This document shows positions 1,970-11,408 of a DNA stretch of 11,636 bases, piece after piece. The stretch's first letter is position 1. Each line of letters opens with the position of its first letter. The stretch is from Promethearchaeota archaeon (GTDB lineage: Archaea; Asgardarchaeota; Lokiarchaeia; Sigynarchaeales; SOKP01), in assembly GCA_016839425.1 (NCBI GenBank), contig JAEOUI010000132.1, forward strand, positions 1 to 11,636, written 5' to 3'. The translations under genes were made by a program, and so were the position numbers. A model generated the notes under the pieces. It did not search any database, had not been told where the DNA came from, and saw only the letters and a program-made list of their open reading frames with translations.

Positions 1970-3676
1970 TTATTTCCTTTTTTTAATAAAGGATTCGAAA
2001 TAAGGGAGTTCTTCTTGCCCTGAATGATCGGTGGTAATAATTATATTATAATTTGAGTTTAAAATTGAAGATATGAACTTTTTAAAAACCATTATAGCTC
2101 CATCCGTTTTAAGAGAGTTATCTTTACAAAAATCTAAACCTAATAAATGAGCGACTATGAGCTGCCGTTCTTCTGAATTAAGACGGATTTCTAATTCTTT
2201 TAATATTTTAATATCTCTATCCCAGACGCTTTTCATCTTAATTGCTACAACGATATCAGCAGCGCTACAATAATGATAGGAACTATAAAGTCCACCAATA
2301 TGCATCGTACGACAGTTCCATTTCCTCGAGTATTTACGAAGTAAATTTGAATTTTTAAACAAGAGCGAAAATCCCTCGTCCGTGTTAGTAGCTATCGCCT
2401 TGACAGATATGGGAGATGTTTCGGTTATCGCTTTAATATCATCCATCGTTGCATTATCTATGATCAAGAGTATGGTTGGCGGGGGAACTTGCAATACTTT
2501 ATTAGGAAGATCCTCTTGAGTTTTTAGAAATATATCTCCTATTTCACAATTCTCTTTCTTAGCTTTAGGTCGTTTTTTCTTATTTAACTCGATAATTTTA
2601 AACGCTAATTCCTGAGTCTTTCCTTCCTTTATTAACAATTTAAGAGCCATTTTTTCATCCTCAATATTCATTTCTACGCCTTTTCTCAAATAATCGCCCA
2701 CATTAGTTTTTATTCTTGTATCGTATAGGGATTCCCTGAAGATAGCTTTTTCTGCCAATGGTTTCCATTTTTTAATTAAATCTTCATACATATCACTTTT
2801 GGAATTTTTCACATTCCAATCAACATTCCAGGATATTATTGCGTTTTTCGCCTGTTCTGGACGTTCGCTCATCTCGTAAGTTTCAATTAATTTGAGTATT
2901 TCTATAGCTTCAAGAAAATTATTATCGTTCACTGGAAGTGATGGTGTGAGCCTCTTATAATGCAATGAAAAAGGTGCTCTAATGATGGGCACGGGATCTA
3001 GAGAATTATCGTCTATTGGAATACCTTTGTTTGTCAATTCTTGATATAAGGTATAATGAAAAATGGATCTATCGAATATTGTAGAACCCTCATCTTTAGG
3101 GAGCCCAATATTTATATGAAGTCCATTCAAAGAAGATAACTTTATGGAATGTTCGAGGTCGTATAATTGAAGTAATTCTCTTGTTTTTATGTATAATTCT
3201 TCTATTGTATGATTTTTTGCATCCAAATCGAGTATAACAGTAGATTCATTCCAAATTAAATTATTTTTGCACGCAATACGATGACACCGATGGCAATCAA
3301 ATGACCGCCTCCCGATTTGGCAATAAGTTTTTCGAATATTAGTTGCAAGATTAGGGTTTATAAAGGAAGGTGCGGTATAACAAAGATCGAATGCCTTCCA
3401 TCCTTTCATGAGATCGATGATGTCATTTGATTCGTTTATTTTCGAAACGAATTCTCTTACTTGATCTATTCCCTTTTTAGAGCGCGCATCCTCTCTTTTT
3501 ATTTTATAAGTGCTGGAAATTATGAGTTGCTGGAACCCAATCATTTTTATTAAGGATTCTCGGAATATATAAGGATATATTAAATTTATGACATTACGAT
3601 AATATTTTAAAATGGCTTCCATATAATCTTCCATTACTACATTTGAAGGTACTAGAGATAAGCGATCTTTTGACAT
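1970..3676 (-). CDS. Primase-like (AEP) domain fused to a degenerate alkaline-phosphatase-superfamily domain
   Basis: The protein has 568 residues and starts at the ATG at 3674-3676. Residues about 80-270 resemble the catalytic small subunit of archaeal primase. VILDLD (147-152) gives the DxD metal pair D150/D152. SSLNGLHINIG (181-191) resembles motif II with H187. DNSLDPVPIIRAP and SLHYK (223-241) resemble the PriS segment R-L-I-R-x-P-G-S-L-H-G-K. A Cys/His cluster at 119-136 (C119, C128, H129, C131, C136) precedes the DxD as a possible zinc site; PriS normally has its zinc site elsewhere. A Lys/Arg-rich linker lies at 367-374. Residues about 400-568 look like an alkaline-phosphatase/phosphodiesterase fold: ILLIID (D407), AHLLGLD (D515) and IIITTDH (D550, H551), with several metal ligands missing. 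It could be a replication, repair or defence polymerase. The domain calls come from motifs only, and the biological role is unknown. Confidence 0.6.
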   Translation of the reverse strand: MSKDRLSLVPSNVVMEDYMEAILKYYRNVINLIYPYIFRESLIKMIGFQQLIISSTYKIKREDARSKKGIDQVREFVSKINESNDIIDLMKGWKAFDLCYTAPSFINPNLATNIRKTYCQIGRRSFDCHRCHRIACKNNLIWNESTVILDLDAKNHTIEELYIKTRELLQLYDLEHSIKLSSLNGLHINIGLPKDEGSTIFDRSIFHYTLYQELTNKGIPIDDNSLDPVPIIRAPFSLHYKRLTPSLPVNDNNFLEAIEILKLIETYEMSERPEQAKNAIISWNVDWNVKNSKSDMYEDLIKKWKPLAEKAIFRESLYDTRIKTNVGDYLRKGVEMNIEDEKMALKLLIKEGKTQELAFKIIELNKKKRPKAKKENCEIGDIFLKTQEDLPNKVLQVPPPTILLIIDNATMDDIKAITETSPISVKAIATNTDEGFSLLFKNSNLLRKYSRKWNCRTMHIGGLYSSYHYCSAADIVVAIKMKSVWDRDIKILKELEIRLNSEERQLIVAHLLGLDFCKDNSLKTDGAIMVFKKFISSILNSNYNIIITTDHSGQEELPYFESFIKKRK

Positions 3677-3761
3677 AATTATTATAATAGCTAAAAAATT
3701 AAAATAATTTTATGTCCTTTTAAAAGATAAAAATAAAAATGATTTATTTTGCCAGTAATAT

Positions 3762-6047
3762 TTATAGGAAAATTCCTGAAAATAAACCGCCAAAAAAGCC
3801 CGTCAAAATGAACAAGGGCAAAAATGTTAAAGCCATAGTGTTCATCGTCGTTATTAATATGTTCATTGAAGGTCCTGCCGAATCTTTTAAGGGATCACCG
3901 ACCGTGTCTCCGATGATTGCGGATTTATGAGCAAAACTTCCCTTTCCTCCAAATAATCCCGACTCAATCGCTTTTTTAGCATTATCAAATGCGGCACCTC
4001 CAATGCTCATAAAGAATCCTAATATTAGGCACCCAATTAAATTTCCAATCAAGATTCCAGCAACCACGATGGGACCAAATAATATACCTAATAATAATGT
4101 AAATGAAATATTAAATAATACGGGCTTAACTATCTTTTTCAAGGCGTTACTAGCTGAAATATCGATACATTCGTCATAATCCGGTTTAACGCCAGGAGCG
4201 CCTTCTTTTAATCCAGGAATTGTTTTAAACTGATGTCTGACTTCTTTAACCATATTTTCGGCCCCTTTTCGAACGGCCCGTAGCACCATTGAAGAAAATA
4301 AGAATGGTAAAACAACCCCAACAAAGATTCCCATTATTATTAACGGATCGAAAAAGTCGAGATTATTAAAAATATCCTTGAGTTCAGTCAGGGGTCTGGC
4401 CGTAGTACTGAGATCATATGCGAGCGTTTGTGTTGATGTGAGAAAGGTAAGGAACATGACAATGCTACTAAAACCACCGCAAATCAGAGCAAATCCTTTA
4501 GCCACGGCTTTAGTCGTATTGCCTAGAGCGTCTAATTTATCTAAGTTGGCGCGAAGGTCTGATGGAGCCTCTTCTCGTCCCATTTCTGCGATGCCAGCAG
4601 CGTTATCCATGATCGGTCCAAAAGTATCAAAACTTAATATCGTGCTAATTATTGTATCGCTTGAAACCGAAGCCATGTTAACGCCCCATATACCGAAACA
4701 AATGAACACTATAGGCATTGTTAGCGGACTTCCTAAAATATTATTTGATGGAGAGCCACTCGCCTCGTAGAATAAAAAGCCAAACTCCTTACCTAAGACG
4801 AAAGTCAAGATTACGGATATACAAAAGACCAAGATTGGCACGAAAGTTGAGCTAAATCCCGTGGCGATGCCGGCAACAATATTAAGCGAGGGACTATCTT
4901 CGGAAGCTTCGGCAACTTTTCTCGTTGGTTTATGATCAACGCTAGTGTAATAAGTCGTTAATAAAATTGCGGTAAACGCAGATAAAAGACCAATGGCACT
5001 CGCAAAAAAGAGATAAATTCCAGCTGGTCCGAATAAAAATAGGTTTATAATCAATAATACAACCATGTTAAAAGAGACGGATGCGATAAAGACGCGCCAA
5101 ATACTTTTCGAAGGCTTAGCGAGATCCACTTTTAAGAATAATGTCGTAAAAAATAACGAGAATAAACCAAGAGAAATTAATGTAAGATTTGATATAACAA
5201 ATTTTGGATCTCCCAAAAATAGAAATATGGTAAGACCGAGCAACATCCCACCAATAACATCTGAAGAGGCACTTTCAAACAAGTCCGCACCTCTTCCTGC
5301 GCAATCTCCTACATTGTCTCCTACCAAATCTGCTATAATTGCCGGATTTCGAGGATCGTCTTCGTCTATGCTTAACTCGTATTTACCAACAAGGTCCGCA
5401 CCCATATCGGCGGATTTAGTAAATATTCCTCCTCCTACTTGAGCTAATAATGCTGCCACGCTAGCGCCAAAATCGTAACTTACCATGAGATAAACATTTC
5501 CTTGCGTAGCAAATAACAAAACCCACGAGCCTAACACGAACATACTTATGTTTAAAATGCCCGTTATCATTCCCCCGTAATACGATAGTTTGAAACCTTC
5601 TTGAGGATCGTTAAATGAGGCCTCAACAACGAGTATGTTGGTTTTTGTTGCAGCTTTCATTCCTATATATCCCGCAAACAAAGAACTCGCCGAACCAAAA
5701 AAGAAGATCGCTATAGCGATTAAAAATCCAGCAATGGGGATATCCATATATTCAATTCCTGTAAATCCAATAGGTACGCATAGGATTGCTCCGATAACTA
5801 GGAACATTTTCGCTTGTCGCTTGAGATATACGGTTGCACCGTGTTCGATATAAGTACTTATCTCTTTCATCTTTGTTGTTTTTTGCTCTAATGATCTTAT
5901 TTTTTTAAAAATTAAAGTGAGACATGTAAAAGATGCAATCAAACAAACAGGGATAATAATAATAACACAAGCGAAAAATACGGGATCTTCTAAGATATTA
6001 AATAAAAATTTTTGAAATTCTGTAATAACAGGTAACTGGGACAACAT
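3762..6047 (-). CDS. hppA: Membrane-bound proton/sodium-translocating inorganic pyrophosphatase
   Basis: The 761 residues with about 16 hydrophobic helices fit this family. It hydrolyses pyrophosphate and pumps H+ or Na+ out across the membrane. Diagnostic motifs are DMGADLVGK (214-222, usually DVGADLVGK), DNVGDCAGRGADLFE (244-258), DNAAGIAEM (481-489) and DTVGDPLKDSAGPSMNILI (714-732). These supply the Asp/Lys residues that hold Mg-pyrophosphate. GNTTKA (509-514) carries Lys513, where potassium-dependent enzymes have Ala, so this should be a potassium-independent, most likely proton-pumping, type. The ATG at 6045-6047 follows TCGTGAAAGTAAAAA, a weak ribosome binding site. It is transcribed away from the acyltransferase gene at 6253, and its stop lies 85 bases before the primase-like gene. 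That gap is T-rich on the coding strand (about 3722-3740), so termination there is plausible. Confidence 0.97.
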   Translation of the reverse strand: MLSQLPVITEFQKFLFNILEDPVFFACVIIIIPVCLIASFTCLTLIFKKIRSLEQKTTKMKEISTYIEHGATVYLKRQAKMFLVIGAILCVPIGFTGIEYMDIPIAGFLIAIAIFFFGSASSLFAGYIGMKAATKTNILVVEASFNDPQEGFKLSYYGGMITGILNISMFVLGSWVLLFATQGNVYLMVSYDFGASVAALLAQVGGGIFTKSADMGADLVGKYELSIDEDDPRNPAIIADLVGDNVGDCAGRGADLFESASSDVIGGMLLGLTIFLFLGDPKFVISNLTLISLGLFSLFFTTLFLKVDLAKPSKSIWRVFIASVSFNMVVLLIINLFLFGPAGIYLFFASAIGLLSAFTAILLTTYYTSVDHKPTRKVAEASEDSPSLNIVAGIATGFSSTFVPILVFCISVILTFVLGKEFGFLFYEASGSPSNNILGSPLTMPIVFICFGIWGVNMASVSSDTIISTILSFDTFGPIMDNAAGIAEMGREEAPSDLRANLDKLDALGNTTKAVAKGFALICGGFSSIVMFLTFLTSTQTLAYDLSTTARPLTELKDIFNNLDFFDPLIIMGIFVGVVLPFLFSSMVLRAVRKGAENMVKEVRHQFKTIPGLKEGAPGVKPDYDECIDISASNALKKIVKPVLFNISFTLLLGILFGPIVVAGILIGNLIGCLILGFFMSIGGAAFDNAKKAIESGLFGGKGSFAHKSAIIGDTVGDPLKDSAGPSMNILITTMNTMALTFLPLFILTGFFGGLFSGIFL

Positions 6048-7999: not shown

Positions 8000-8506
8000 T
8001 TATTTCTTCCAACTATCGGATTTTGGTCCCGCAAACAGCAACACGAGAGCTATGATAAAGATTGGTGCGCCACCCCACCATTGACCGAAAATTTCGGCAA
8101 TGATACCCCAAGCGAGCATCCAAGGGATTCTCACGCTTCCCAAGACGAATACATCATCGAGTAATTTATCCCAATTTTTTTCACCACAGAGTTTCGAAAA
8201 TCTAGGCCTAACGATGGCAATAGCAAAAATGGCAAGCACGATTGCACTAACGATCTCCCATATCAAATACGCGTCGAGAGGGTAGGCTGGATACGGTCCT
8301 GCCAAAGAAGCATATGGAAGTGCTTCATAAGCTTGTTTACCCTCGAGCCATAGAGAATAAGTGGTTGCAATGTCAGCAATAGGCCAAATTATATATATTA
8401 AAGCATTTACAAGGAGGAGGACCCAAGTCCATTTACCTAAAATACTTGCCCATTTCTCGTGTTGCCAACTTCCTTTCGATTTAACCGTTTTTGTTTGTTC
8501 TACCAT
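8000..8506 (-). CDS. Four-helix membrane protein of unrecognised family, paralogue 1
   Basis: This 168-residue protein is a paralogue of those at 10126-10620 and 10899-11408. I do not recognise the family. The N-terminus is short and charged. The motif W-x-[HY]-E-x-W-x-S-x-x-GK-x-TW (14-28) leads into helix 1 (about 27-47). A variable loop (about 48-78) is followed by helix 2 (about 80-99), a conserved polar loop RPRFSKLCGEKNWDKLLDDV (100-119) with Cys107, helix 3 (about 126-140) ending EIFG, helix 4 (about 147-160), and a tail with GPK and a terminal WKK. Over the last 75 residues it matches paralogue 2 at 59 positions. The ATG at 8504-8506 has an excellent ribosome binding site, AAAGGTGAT. 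It lacks the shared upstream motif found before 9778 and 10620. Confidence 0.88.
   Translation of the reverse strand: MVEQTKTVKSKGSWQHEKWASILGKWTWVLLLVNALIYIIWPIADIATTYSLWLEGKQAYEALPYASLAGPYPAYPLDAYLIWEIVSAIVLAIFAIAIVRPRFSKLCGEKNWDKLLDDVFVLGSVRIPWMLAWGIIAEIFGQWWGGAPIFIIALVLLFAGPKSDSWKK
8067..8143 (-). repeat. Nearly identical coding tract shared with 10193-10269
   Basis: This 77-base stretch and 10193-10269 match at 69 of 77 positions by hand alignment without gaps, beginning with an identical run of 20 bases starting GCGCCACCCC. The tract covers helix 3, the EIFGQWWGGAP turn and the preceding loop of paralogues 1 and 2. The match reflects gene duplication, possibly with later gene conversion. 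Confidence 0.8.
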
Positions 8507-8842: not shown

Positions 8843-9778
8843 TTATTTTAACGAATTCCTGCGTTTAGTGATATATACAGTACTAAAAACGGTTAAAACA
8901 CTCACGAGACATATTCCTAATACGATATAAAGCTCGTATCCAGGAATTGCCGCATTAGTGGAACCTGAAGAGGATTGTAAAACTCGTTTATTATAATAGC
9001 TATAATCAAAACTTTCTTCATTTTCGTTTAAATAGGTTTGATTAACGATTTCATTGATAGATATTTGATACACTCGCTCATATCGATTGATTATAAAATC
9101 CTCGTAATCAAGCATATATTCTTGACTTACATCGTATATAACGGATTCGTTAAACACATCAACACCGTTATCGAACCAGAAATAATCTTCTTGTTGATAT
9201 GACACGCTAAAAGCAATTGTTTGCGATACATCGTTAACTTCTAATTCATAATCGAAAGTACTCACGTTTCCCTTTAGCCAAATTAATTCTTGAGATACGG
9301 CGTCTAAAGGCTCCGTAAATTCCGTCCAGGTTCCCGCAATTATATGACACGGCGATATTGCCACGCCTCCAAACACCTCTATCCAAAACGATTCAAAAAG
9401 ACCGTCGTTATCGTCATCCTTGCAAAATGAGCTTGAGACATAAATTGGTCCACTACTCACATTGAAACTATCACATGGTGTAGCCCCGACCGTATTAAGA
9501 ATTAGAAATTGTATCCATTCCAAAGTAGTGTTAACATCGGTTACTTTCAATTTAAAATCGCTTGTATAACTTGATGTATCTAGTATCAATTCAGAAGTGT
9601 TAACGATTTGAGACTCAATTTTAGTTATGCCAGTTTCTCGAAAATCCTGTACCCCTTCTATCACAACATCAACGCCCCTATCTCCTGGTGCCGCCTGCGT
9701 AAGGATTATTGAAGATACTAAAAACAAGGCACTAAAGAAACATAGCAAAGTAATCGACAATATTTTATTCTTGTTCAT
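8843..9778 (-). CDS. Secreted, membrane-anchored surface protein with IPGY-type C-terminal signal
   Basis: This 311-residue protein has an N-terminal signal peptide: KNK, a hydrophobic core, then a likely cut after LTQAA near residue 30. The C-terminus is IPGYELYIVLG (278-288), a hydrophobic helix and the basic tail KRRNSLK. This matches the partial protein at 1-93 and the Loki-type version of archaeal C-terminal sorting signals, so the body should lie outside the cell. The exported part is predicted beta-rich. It has six N-x-S/T sites (N60, 83, 106, 171, 210, 246), three Cys (102, 119, 144) and an acidic calcium-loop-like DDDNDGLFE (121-129) with Asp at positions 1, 3 and 5. I recognise no enzyme domain. 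The start has AAGGTATGA four bases upstream as a fair ribosome binding site. Its promoter motif is shared with paralogue 2. Confidence 0.88.
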   Translation of the reverse strand: MNKNKILSITLLCFFSALFLVSSIILTQAAPGDRGVDVVIEGVQDFRETGITKIESQIVNTSELILDTSSYTSDFKLKVTDVNTTLEWIQFLILNTVGATPCDSFNVSSGPIYVSSSFCKDDDNDGLFESFWIEVFGGVAISPCHIIAGTWTEFTEPLDAVSQELIWLKGNVSTFDYELEVNDVSQTIAFSVSYQQEDYFWFDNGVDVFNESVIYDVSQEYMLDYEDFIINRYERVYQISINEIVNQTYLNENEESFDYSYYNKRVLQSSSGSTNAAIPGYELYIVLGICLVSVLTVFSTVYITKRRNSLK

Positions 9779-10125: not shown

Positions 10126-10620
10126 TTAAGTTTTCCATTCGTACTGTTTCGGACCATCAAACAGTAAAAACAGGGCGATTACAAATATTGGAGCGCCACC
10201 CCACCATTGACCAAAGATTTCGGCGATGATACCCCAAACGAGCATCCATGGGAATCTAATGCTTCCCAATTTCAGCACATCATCTAATAAATAGTCCCAA
10301 TTTTTTTCGCTACAAGGATTCGAAAATCGAGGTCTCACGATGGCGATCGCAAAGATGATTAGGATGATTGCACTCACAATGCCCCATATCCAAGACGCAT
10401 CAACAGTAAAGGTAGCTGTGAAAGGAACTCCTAAGGTCTGATAATATGTCTTGAGATCGTTCCATGCAGTATAAGCAGCAGACATCCAGTAAATGTTTAA
10501 TAAGATATATACTAATGAATTTATTAAAAGGATGATCCAAGTTATCTTACCTAAAAAGCTTGCCCAACCTTCATGCTTCCATGTTCCTTTCGATTTTGTT
10601 TTTTTTGTTTGTTCAGTCAT
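10126..10620 (-). CDS. Four-helix membrane protein of unrecognised family, paralogue 2
   Basis: This 164-residue protein is the closest relative of paralogue 1. Both begin M-x-EQTK-x-x-KSKG and share 59 of the last 75 residues. Visible parts are W-x-HE-x-W-x-S-x-x-GK-x-TW (14-28), helix 1 (about 27-47), a loop (about 48-74) unlike that of the other two copies, helix 2 (about 76-95), the polar loop RPRFSNPCSEKNWDYLLDDV (96-115) with Cys103, helix 3 (about 122-136), EIFGQWWGGAP, helix 4 (about 143-156) and a GPKQYEWKT tail. The function is unknown. Conserved Trp, Cys and charged residues on the loop between helices 2 and 3 suggest a cytosolic or membrane-surface binding site. The start has AAGTGA upstream, a weak ribosome binding site. 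Its promoter carries copy 2 of the motif shared with the surface-protein gene, so co-expression is likely. Confidence 0.88.
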   Translation of the reverse strand: MTEQTKKTKSKGTWKHEGWASFLGKITWIILLINSLVYILLNIYWMSAAYTAWNDLKTYYQTLGVPFTATFTVDASWIWGIVSAIILIIFAIAIVRPRFSNPCSEKNWDYLLDDVLKLGSIRFPWMLVWGIIAEIFGQWWGGAPIFVIALFLLFDGPKQYEWKT

Positions 10621-10898: not shown

Positions 10899-11408
10899 TT
10901 ATTTCTTCCATTCGTATTTTTGTGGTCCCTTGTACAATAATAAGATAGCGATTATAAAAATTGGCATGCCTGCAATCCCTAACCCAAAGATTTCTGTAAT
11001 TACAAACCATATCAGCATTCGTGGAATTCTAGTTTCGCCCACGATCCAAACATCGTCGAGTAATCTATTCCAATCTTTTTCTTTACATGGTTTAGAAAAT
11101 CGAGAGCGCAGAGTATTATGGGCAAAATACATTAAAATTATCGGAGATATAATATCCCAAAACCAAACAGGTTGGAACTCGTAAACATAGTAGTAAGTAC
11201 TTGACGAATTATTACTCTCCCAGGCTAATTTTGCTCCTATAAATAAATATGTATACGATGATATCGTATAAATAGTTGCTAAGAAATATAATAGAGCAAT
11301 TATTAAAACTAATATCCAAGTCCATTTTCCGAAAATTGAAACCCATTTTTCGTATTGCCAAACGGTTTTAATGGATTCTTTTTCTGCCTTTTTCTCTTTT
11401 TCTGACAT
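10899..11408 (-). CDS. Four-helix membrane protein of unrecognised family, paralogue 3 (divergent)
   Basis: This 169-residue protein is the most divergent of the three. It keeps the frame of the family: W-x-YE-x-W-x-S-x-x-GK-x-TW (17-31), helix 1, helix 2 (about 82-99), RSRFSKPCKEKDWNRLLDDV (101-120) with Cys108, helix 3 with TEIFG (138-142), G-x-PIFIIA (147-154) and the GPQKYEWKK tail. Differences are a longer Lys/Glu-rich N-terminus, a Ser/Tyr/Asn-rich loop (about 66-80), and LGIAGM instead of QWWGGA after EIFG. It has no ribosome binding site, and ATG 11406-11408 follows AT-rich DNA. Its upstream region contains only a fragment of the shared promoter motif. It is probably an older duplicate with its own regulation. 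Confidence 0.87.
   Translation of the reverse strand: MSEKEKKAEKESIKTVWQYEKWVSIFGKWTWILVLIIALLYFLATIYTISSYTYLFIGAKLAWESNNSSSTYYYVYEFQPVWFWDIISPIILMYFAHNTLRSRFSKPCKEKDWNRLLDDVWIVGETRIPRMLIWFVITEIFGLGIAGMPIFIIAILLLYKGPQKYEWKK

Follow-up and report, generated by a model that had tools for sequence, protein, structure and literature searches.

The window examined here, an 11,636-nucleotide stretch from a Promethearchaeota archaeon (assembly GCA_016839425.1, contig JAEOUI010000132.1, analyzed over its full length), carries a gene whose product joins a polymerase domain of the archaeo-eukaryotic primase (AEP) superfamily to a C-terminal domain, or tail, with the fold of the alkaline phosphatase (AlkP) superfamily. 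Confident structure prediction and structure comparison support both predicted folds, and the fusion is a new architecture built from known domains. The function that we tentatively favor over several rivals is that of an accessory, nonreplicative polymerase of the LigD/Prim-PolC type whose tail might serve as a phosphoesterase that processes ends in cis during repair. We infer the chemistry, substrate, and pathway of the fusion protein from the evidence set out below.

The gene occupies positions 1970–3676 of the minus strand (stop codon at 1970–1972) as a single uninterrupted open reading frame that begins with ATG, encodes 568 amino acids, and has no internal stop. Single-sequence and profile searches of 5.8 billion proteins recovered 46 homologues besides the query (best E-values 2.8e-229 and 1.8e-288, respectively), none of which carries a precomputed Pfam domain. 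Conservation was judged from an alignment of 33 of these 47 sequences, with 14 (six full-length, eight shorter) omitted by choice. Ratios of nonsynonymous to synonymous substitution (dN/dS) indicate purifying selection, at about 0.16 for the whole gene and 0.11 for the tail between loci L003 and L005, and about 0.14 and 0.15, respectively, between L002 and L004, where domain borders were set by the residue numbers of each pair's first member. A chance reading frame is ruled out by the homologues and by the whole-gene dN/dS of about 0.14–0.16.

The polymerase domain

The original prediction, made from the sequence alone, had proposed a primase-like domain followed by a phosphatase-like domain, and had located the reading frame and the polymerase motifs where we find them. 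Predicted structure, structure comparison, and invariant motifs bear out the AEP fold of the first domain, whose border shifts to about residues 13–290 (2807–3640; all features are on the minus strand). It contains motif I, D150-L-D152 (3221–3229), motif II, S181-S-L-N-G-L-H187 (3116–3136), and motif III with the block that follows, D222-D-N-S-L-D-P-V-P-I-I-R233-A-P-F-S-L-H239 (2960–3013). The superfamily motif residues D150, D152, H187, and D222 are invariant in 33 of 33 rows, as are S181, S182, G185, D227, R233, P235, and H239; D222, R233, P235, and H239 are present too in the LigD-type protein of L024. Directly before motif I lies a four-cysteine motif, C119-x8-C128-x2-C131-x4-C136 (3269–3322), which is invariant in the 33 fused rows, is also kept in the six tail-less rows of alignment A5, and probably forms a zinc knuckle.

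The layout had been likened to that of PriS. The AEP motifs are indeed present, but structure comparison and hhalign profile comparison place the domain closer to LigD/Prim-PolC polymerases than to PriS (the PriS set held seven of seven loci and the LigD_Prim-Pol set 13 of 16 matches, the short or partial L049–L051 being omitted). The sole Pfam match of the window protein (P0001) is to LigD_Prim-Pol (PF21686) and is below threshold (E 0.13; 12.3 bits, with the cut-off at 27.4), and that model is matched at E up to 1 by 8 of the 33 family members (best E 0.0061). An NCBIfam scan of the protein gave nothing useful, and querying solved structures by sequence, either with the protein or with the family profile, brought up nothing relevant.

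The view that this is not the usual replicative PriS has held up well. Even with the E-value limit set at 1, the window protein does not match PF01896, and its hhalign value against PriS is 1.2%; a separate PF01896 PriS above the Pfam cut-off is present in all seven relatives' genomes scanned (five full-length carriers and two with remnants). PriL is present in nine of nine (the same seven plus G009 and G010). An identity as the organism's PriS is rejected on the missing match, the hhalign value, and the separate PriS in the genomes of relatives, a set that does not include the window's own genome. The fusion protein probably serves in repair as an accessory enzyme and not as the replication primase. 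Extra partial PriL-family matches (positions about 100–209) were seen besides the main PriL at G002:C247, G004:C324, and G004:C122. Ku was found in two of nine genomes, which may be incomplete, and in one of the five full-length carriers (G005). The latter count rules out a strict nonhomologous end joining (NHEJ) factor, and because four of the five full-length carriers show no Ku, the fusion protein would act outside classical NHEJ.

The helical module and the C-terminal domain

The AEP domain is followed by a helical module (residues 291–383; 2528–2806), delimited by the secondary structure of the model and including a low-confidence linker at residues 375–379. This module is the least conserved region, with a mean pairwise identity of 0.40. 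The tail covers residues 384–568 (1973–2527), compared with about 400–568 as first proposed, and its AlkP superfamily fold is supported by the predicted structure and by structure comparison, in which PglZ and PorX are among the matches. The most confident of five models was kept; the other four scored 83.9, 75.2, 70.6, and 49.2.

Several residues of a putative active site can be assigned. D407 (2456–2458), just past strand 401–406, is probably a metal-2 ligand, as are D550-H551 (2024–2029), past strand 544–548, whereas T432 (2381–2383), which opens helix 432–441, is probably the nucleophile. All four residues are invariant in the 33 fused proteins and lie at the expected secondary-structure positions in the model. 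The hhalign alignment leaves T432 off the known nucleophile position, and thus its assignment rests on model secondary structure. (For these comparisons, the Phosphodiest set held the best 20 loci of a longer list, and the Metalloenzyme set 13 of the 15 fetched loci.) The D-x3-H motif of the metal-1 site, a spacing seen in PorX (PMC11320123), has as its counterpart D515-F-C-K-D519 (2120–2134), with Asp for His. D515, C517, K518, and D519 are invariant in all 33 rows, and no conserved His follows H551.

Relatives, distribution, and origin

Named sources of the homologues include Lokiarchaeota/Promethearchaeota, Sigynarchaeota, and Hodarchaeota metagenome-assembled genomes (MAGs), Methanofollis formosanus, and Methanoregula sp., and a genome scan gave eight loci, including L006 from the MAG 'Euryarchaeota archaeon isolate EA_22'. 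The Methanofollis, Methanoregula, and Euryarchaeota members show that the family extends beyond the Asgard archaea, to which the original prediction had suggested it could be specific. Within the phylum of a Sigynarchaeota MAG (G002), 9 of 227 genomes matched: four with full-length genes (five copies), two with C-terminal remnants (G006 and G007), two with tail-less relatives (G009 and G010), and one with a LigD-type protein (G170). In the phylum of G005, the only match among 389 genomes was G005 itself. Among 99 genomes sampled from the G002 phylum, 15 have a LigD_Prim-Pol match above the cut-off (L036–L048); two of these matches score above 300 bits in frames of about 300 amino acids, and most others score below 80 bits in frames of 375–437.

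One remnant, in G006 (L007:10007–10561), is a lone 185-amino-acid tail frame in which D407 is replaced by Asn; it lies directly upstream of an Nre_N/Nre_C gene (PF04894/PF04895; L007:10686–12020). The other, in G007, retains about 70 residues of the tail and has a stop inside.

Tail-less relatives stop near residue 375 of the window protein. A search with a tail-less pair (A4) listed at least seven proteins (P0048–P0054) of 382–397 amino acids, one of which (P0048, source name Baldrarchaeia MAG) is identical to the L021 query row. The fused family is not among the matches listed for this pair, and the L021 protein as query finds the fused family in genomes at E-values from 2.2e-29 to 4.7e-23. 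PF21686 was matched by four of the five tail-less proteins scanned, in each case weakly and below the cut-off (E 8.9e-6 to 0.008). A tree of AEP regions from 33 fused, 7 tail-less, and 13 LigD-type proteins, rooted at its midpoint and built with a program warning of long branches, has one change per group; support is moderate for the fused group (73/89) and stands at 98/93 for the tail-less and 98/94 for the PolDom group. This sequence-based tree is in line with one fusion event.

Genomic context

The same-strand neighbors of the fusion gene encode a membrane pyrophosphatase (3762–6047), a pirin (900–1775), and a CxxCxxCC protein (199–855). A conserved operon was rejected, given that an all-against-all comparison of mechanically called reading frames from the window and nine loci found neighbors recurring only within the group L002–L005; besides these, the sole common neighbor is a pfkB-type kinase in L002 and L022 (25% identical). 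In the non-window loci, nine neighboring proteins were scanned against Pfam. One Lokiarchaeota MAG carries an ARPP-1 family protein (PF20208, 1.9e-50; L001:840–1889) in the vicinity of the fused gene.

A viral-type gene was likewise rejected, since viral_contigs yielded no relative and PHROG a single match (E 0.03), in a search that did not extend to collections of plasmid and phage records. Twenty stretches in viral_contigs matched the pattern GLD[YF]CKD or DDN[SA]LDP[VI], and none was confirmed as a relative.

Elsewhere in the window, three related small hydrophobic proteins of 164–169 amino acids are encoded on the minus strand (8000–8506, 10126–10620, and 10899–11408); the second and third share 64% and 46% identity with it in turn, counted against the first, and none exceeds a Pfam cut-off. 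A 311-amino-acid protein (8843–9778, minus strand) with hydrophobic ends, as judged by eye, lies among these small membrane proteins and has no Pfam match. An Rfam scan of the window gave no match.

Possible functions of the fusion protein

If the protein is a repair polymerase with cis end-processing, the AEP domain might fill short gaps, or extend or prime at damaged ends, by using D150, D152, and D222, and the cysteine knuckle and helical module could grip the nucleic acid. The original prediction had suggested a repair or translesion polymerase, and both roles are hypothetical. The tail would then use T432 and a metal held by D407, D550, and H551 to trim the ends handled by the polymerase by a phosphate or a terminal nucleotide, as the unrelated phosphoesterase domain of LigD does. 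This proposal is favored on the basis of three considerations: the likeness of the AEP domain to repair polymerases that close gaps and lengthen ends, the phosphoester cleavage typical of the tail's superfamily, in which PglZ and PorX act on nucleic acids or oligonucleotides (PMC12205998, PMC11320123), and the pairing in archaeal NHEJ of a polymerase with an unrelated phosphoesterase acting on the same ends (PMC4797286). A wider proposal, which we consider fairly unlikely, is a polymerase with its own AlkP-fold phosphodiesterase serving as end-trimmer, proofreader, or oligonucleotide eraser through a rebuilt, possibly single-metal site, spread in archaea largely without Ku as an independent counterpart of LigD and its phosphoesterase.

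A number of observations weigh against an active repair phosphoesterase. The metal-1 site is altered, with Asp519 for the His of D-x3-H and no conserved counterpart of the last His, and a double mutation of D-x3-H in PorX abolished phosphodiesterase activity (PMC11320123). Up to an E-value of 1, none of the 33 members matches a Pfam AlkP family, and so the tail assignment rests on the fold and on weak profile evidence. A first hhalign run, made with other options and the wrong reading frame in several loci, was weaker (27% and 23%). No recurrent repair gene lies beside the fusion gene in the window and nine loci, and the patchy distribution and decayed copies indicate that the gene is dispensable and sometimes lost.

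The tail might therefore be a catalytically dead AlkP-fold module that binds a nucleotide, a DNA end, or a partner, leaving only the polymerase active. This possibility ranks next after cis end-processing, although we judge it somewhat unlikely. In AlkP relatives a longer loop carries the last His, where the model of the tail has only a short turn between strands 544–548 and 556–562. The changed metal-1 site, needed in PorX, points the same way, as does the survival of the lone L007 domain with Asn at position 407; that copy, however, lacks the polymerase part and may be decaying. Moreover, a pure scaffold would not need D407, T432, D550, and H551, which never vary in the 33 fused proteins aligned.

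Other activities appear improbable. AEPs make short oligomers, and the polymerase could synthesize oligonucleotides as primers or signals that the tail degrades, in the manner of two-headed nucleotide-signal enzymes. The AlkP-fold proteins PorX and PglZ hydrolyze short linear or cyclic oligonucleotides, but no sensor domain is seen in the protein and no signaling neighbor recurs. There is a similarly small chance that the tail drives or cleans synthesis through hydrolysis of pyrophosphate or of damaged nucleotides. Least probable is a defense polymerase or nuclease akin to the CRISPR-associated prim-pols or to BREX PglZ, an idea already raised in the original prediction that has gained little support. 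The patchy distribution (full-length carriers in 4 of 227 genomes of one phylum and 1 of 389 of another) and the PglZ and PorX fold matches would fit such a role. In L021, a tail-less AEP gene (1516–2676) stands head-to-head with an ATPase-like gene (2760–3809) that matches the PADLOC candidate-defense model PDC-S27 (4.5e-10). However, PADLOC matches neither the fusion protein, nor the AEP of L021, nor two window neighbors; no viral-contig relative was confirmed; and the window setting is a pyrophosphatase and a pirin.

Significance and comparison with known systems

As anticipated, no described family with this domain order was found: a word search of the open-licence literature, outside which most subscription papers lie, gave no description of an AEP joined to an alkaline phosphatase fold and no paper pairing a primase-polymerase with PglZ. 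In the available text of a 2025 study of Asgard primases (PMC12770985), the terms fusion, phosphatase, PrimPol, and LigD have no occurrences, and the same is true of 'phosphatase' in that of two AEP surveys (PMC5862659, PMC4538821) and a CRISPR prim-pol paper (PMC8211822). A conserved family without a precomputed Pfam domain thus unites a nucleic-acid polymerase with a hydrolase fold. Its member in Methanofollis formosanus (E2N92_01105), a named species with a 2.97 Mb contig, should be accessible to gene disruption and to assay. Should both halves prove active, evolution would have reached a polymerase that processes ends itself by a second route, and the repair of breaks and gaps in archaea would gain a Ku-free candidate. 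Even with an inactive tail, the family would be a clean example of a phosphatase fold that was rebuilt and taken up by a polymerase.

Among known systems, replicative PriS differs from the window protein in its profile, as described above, and in the PriS of L011 the cysteine cluster follows motif I rather than preceding it. For the tail, PorX is a structural match and PglZ (PF08665) gives no Pfam match; hhalign to Asgard PglZ reaches 3.8% with a set of 7 of 15 loci, five of the seven rows being of unexpected length, and the tail departs from both proteins in its metal-1 site. Phosphonoacetate hydrolase, phosphopentomutase, iPGM, and NPP have chains of 383–549 residues, whereas the tail has about 185 and a changed metal-1 site. 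The tail-less archaeal AEP family shares the AEP core, the four cysteines, and the helical end with P0001 (28–30% identity in aligned rows) but lacks the AlkP-fold domain.

The best structural and profile match of the AEP domain is to the LigD polymerase domain, Prim-PolC, and the archaeal NHEJ polymerase (PF21686), with which it shares the fold, the DxD motif, the Ser and Gly of motif II, the later Asp, and the R-x-P-x-S-x-H block. It differs from these in the added cysteine motif before motif I, the extra helical and AlkP-fold domains, a separate tree branch, a subthreshold Pfam score, and the rarity of Ku among its full-length carriers. The 3'-phosphoesterase domain of LigD has a fold unrelated to that of the tail, one called unique to its clade in PMC4797286, yet the two share a proposed role in processing ends in cis with an AEP polymerase.
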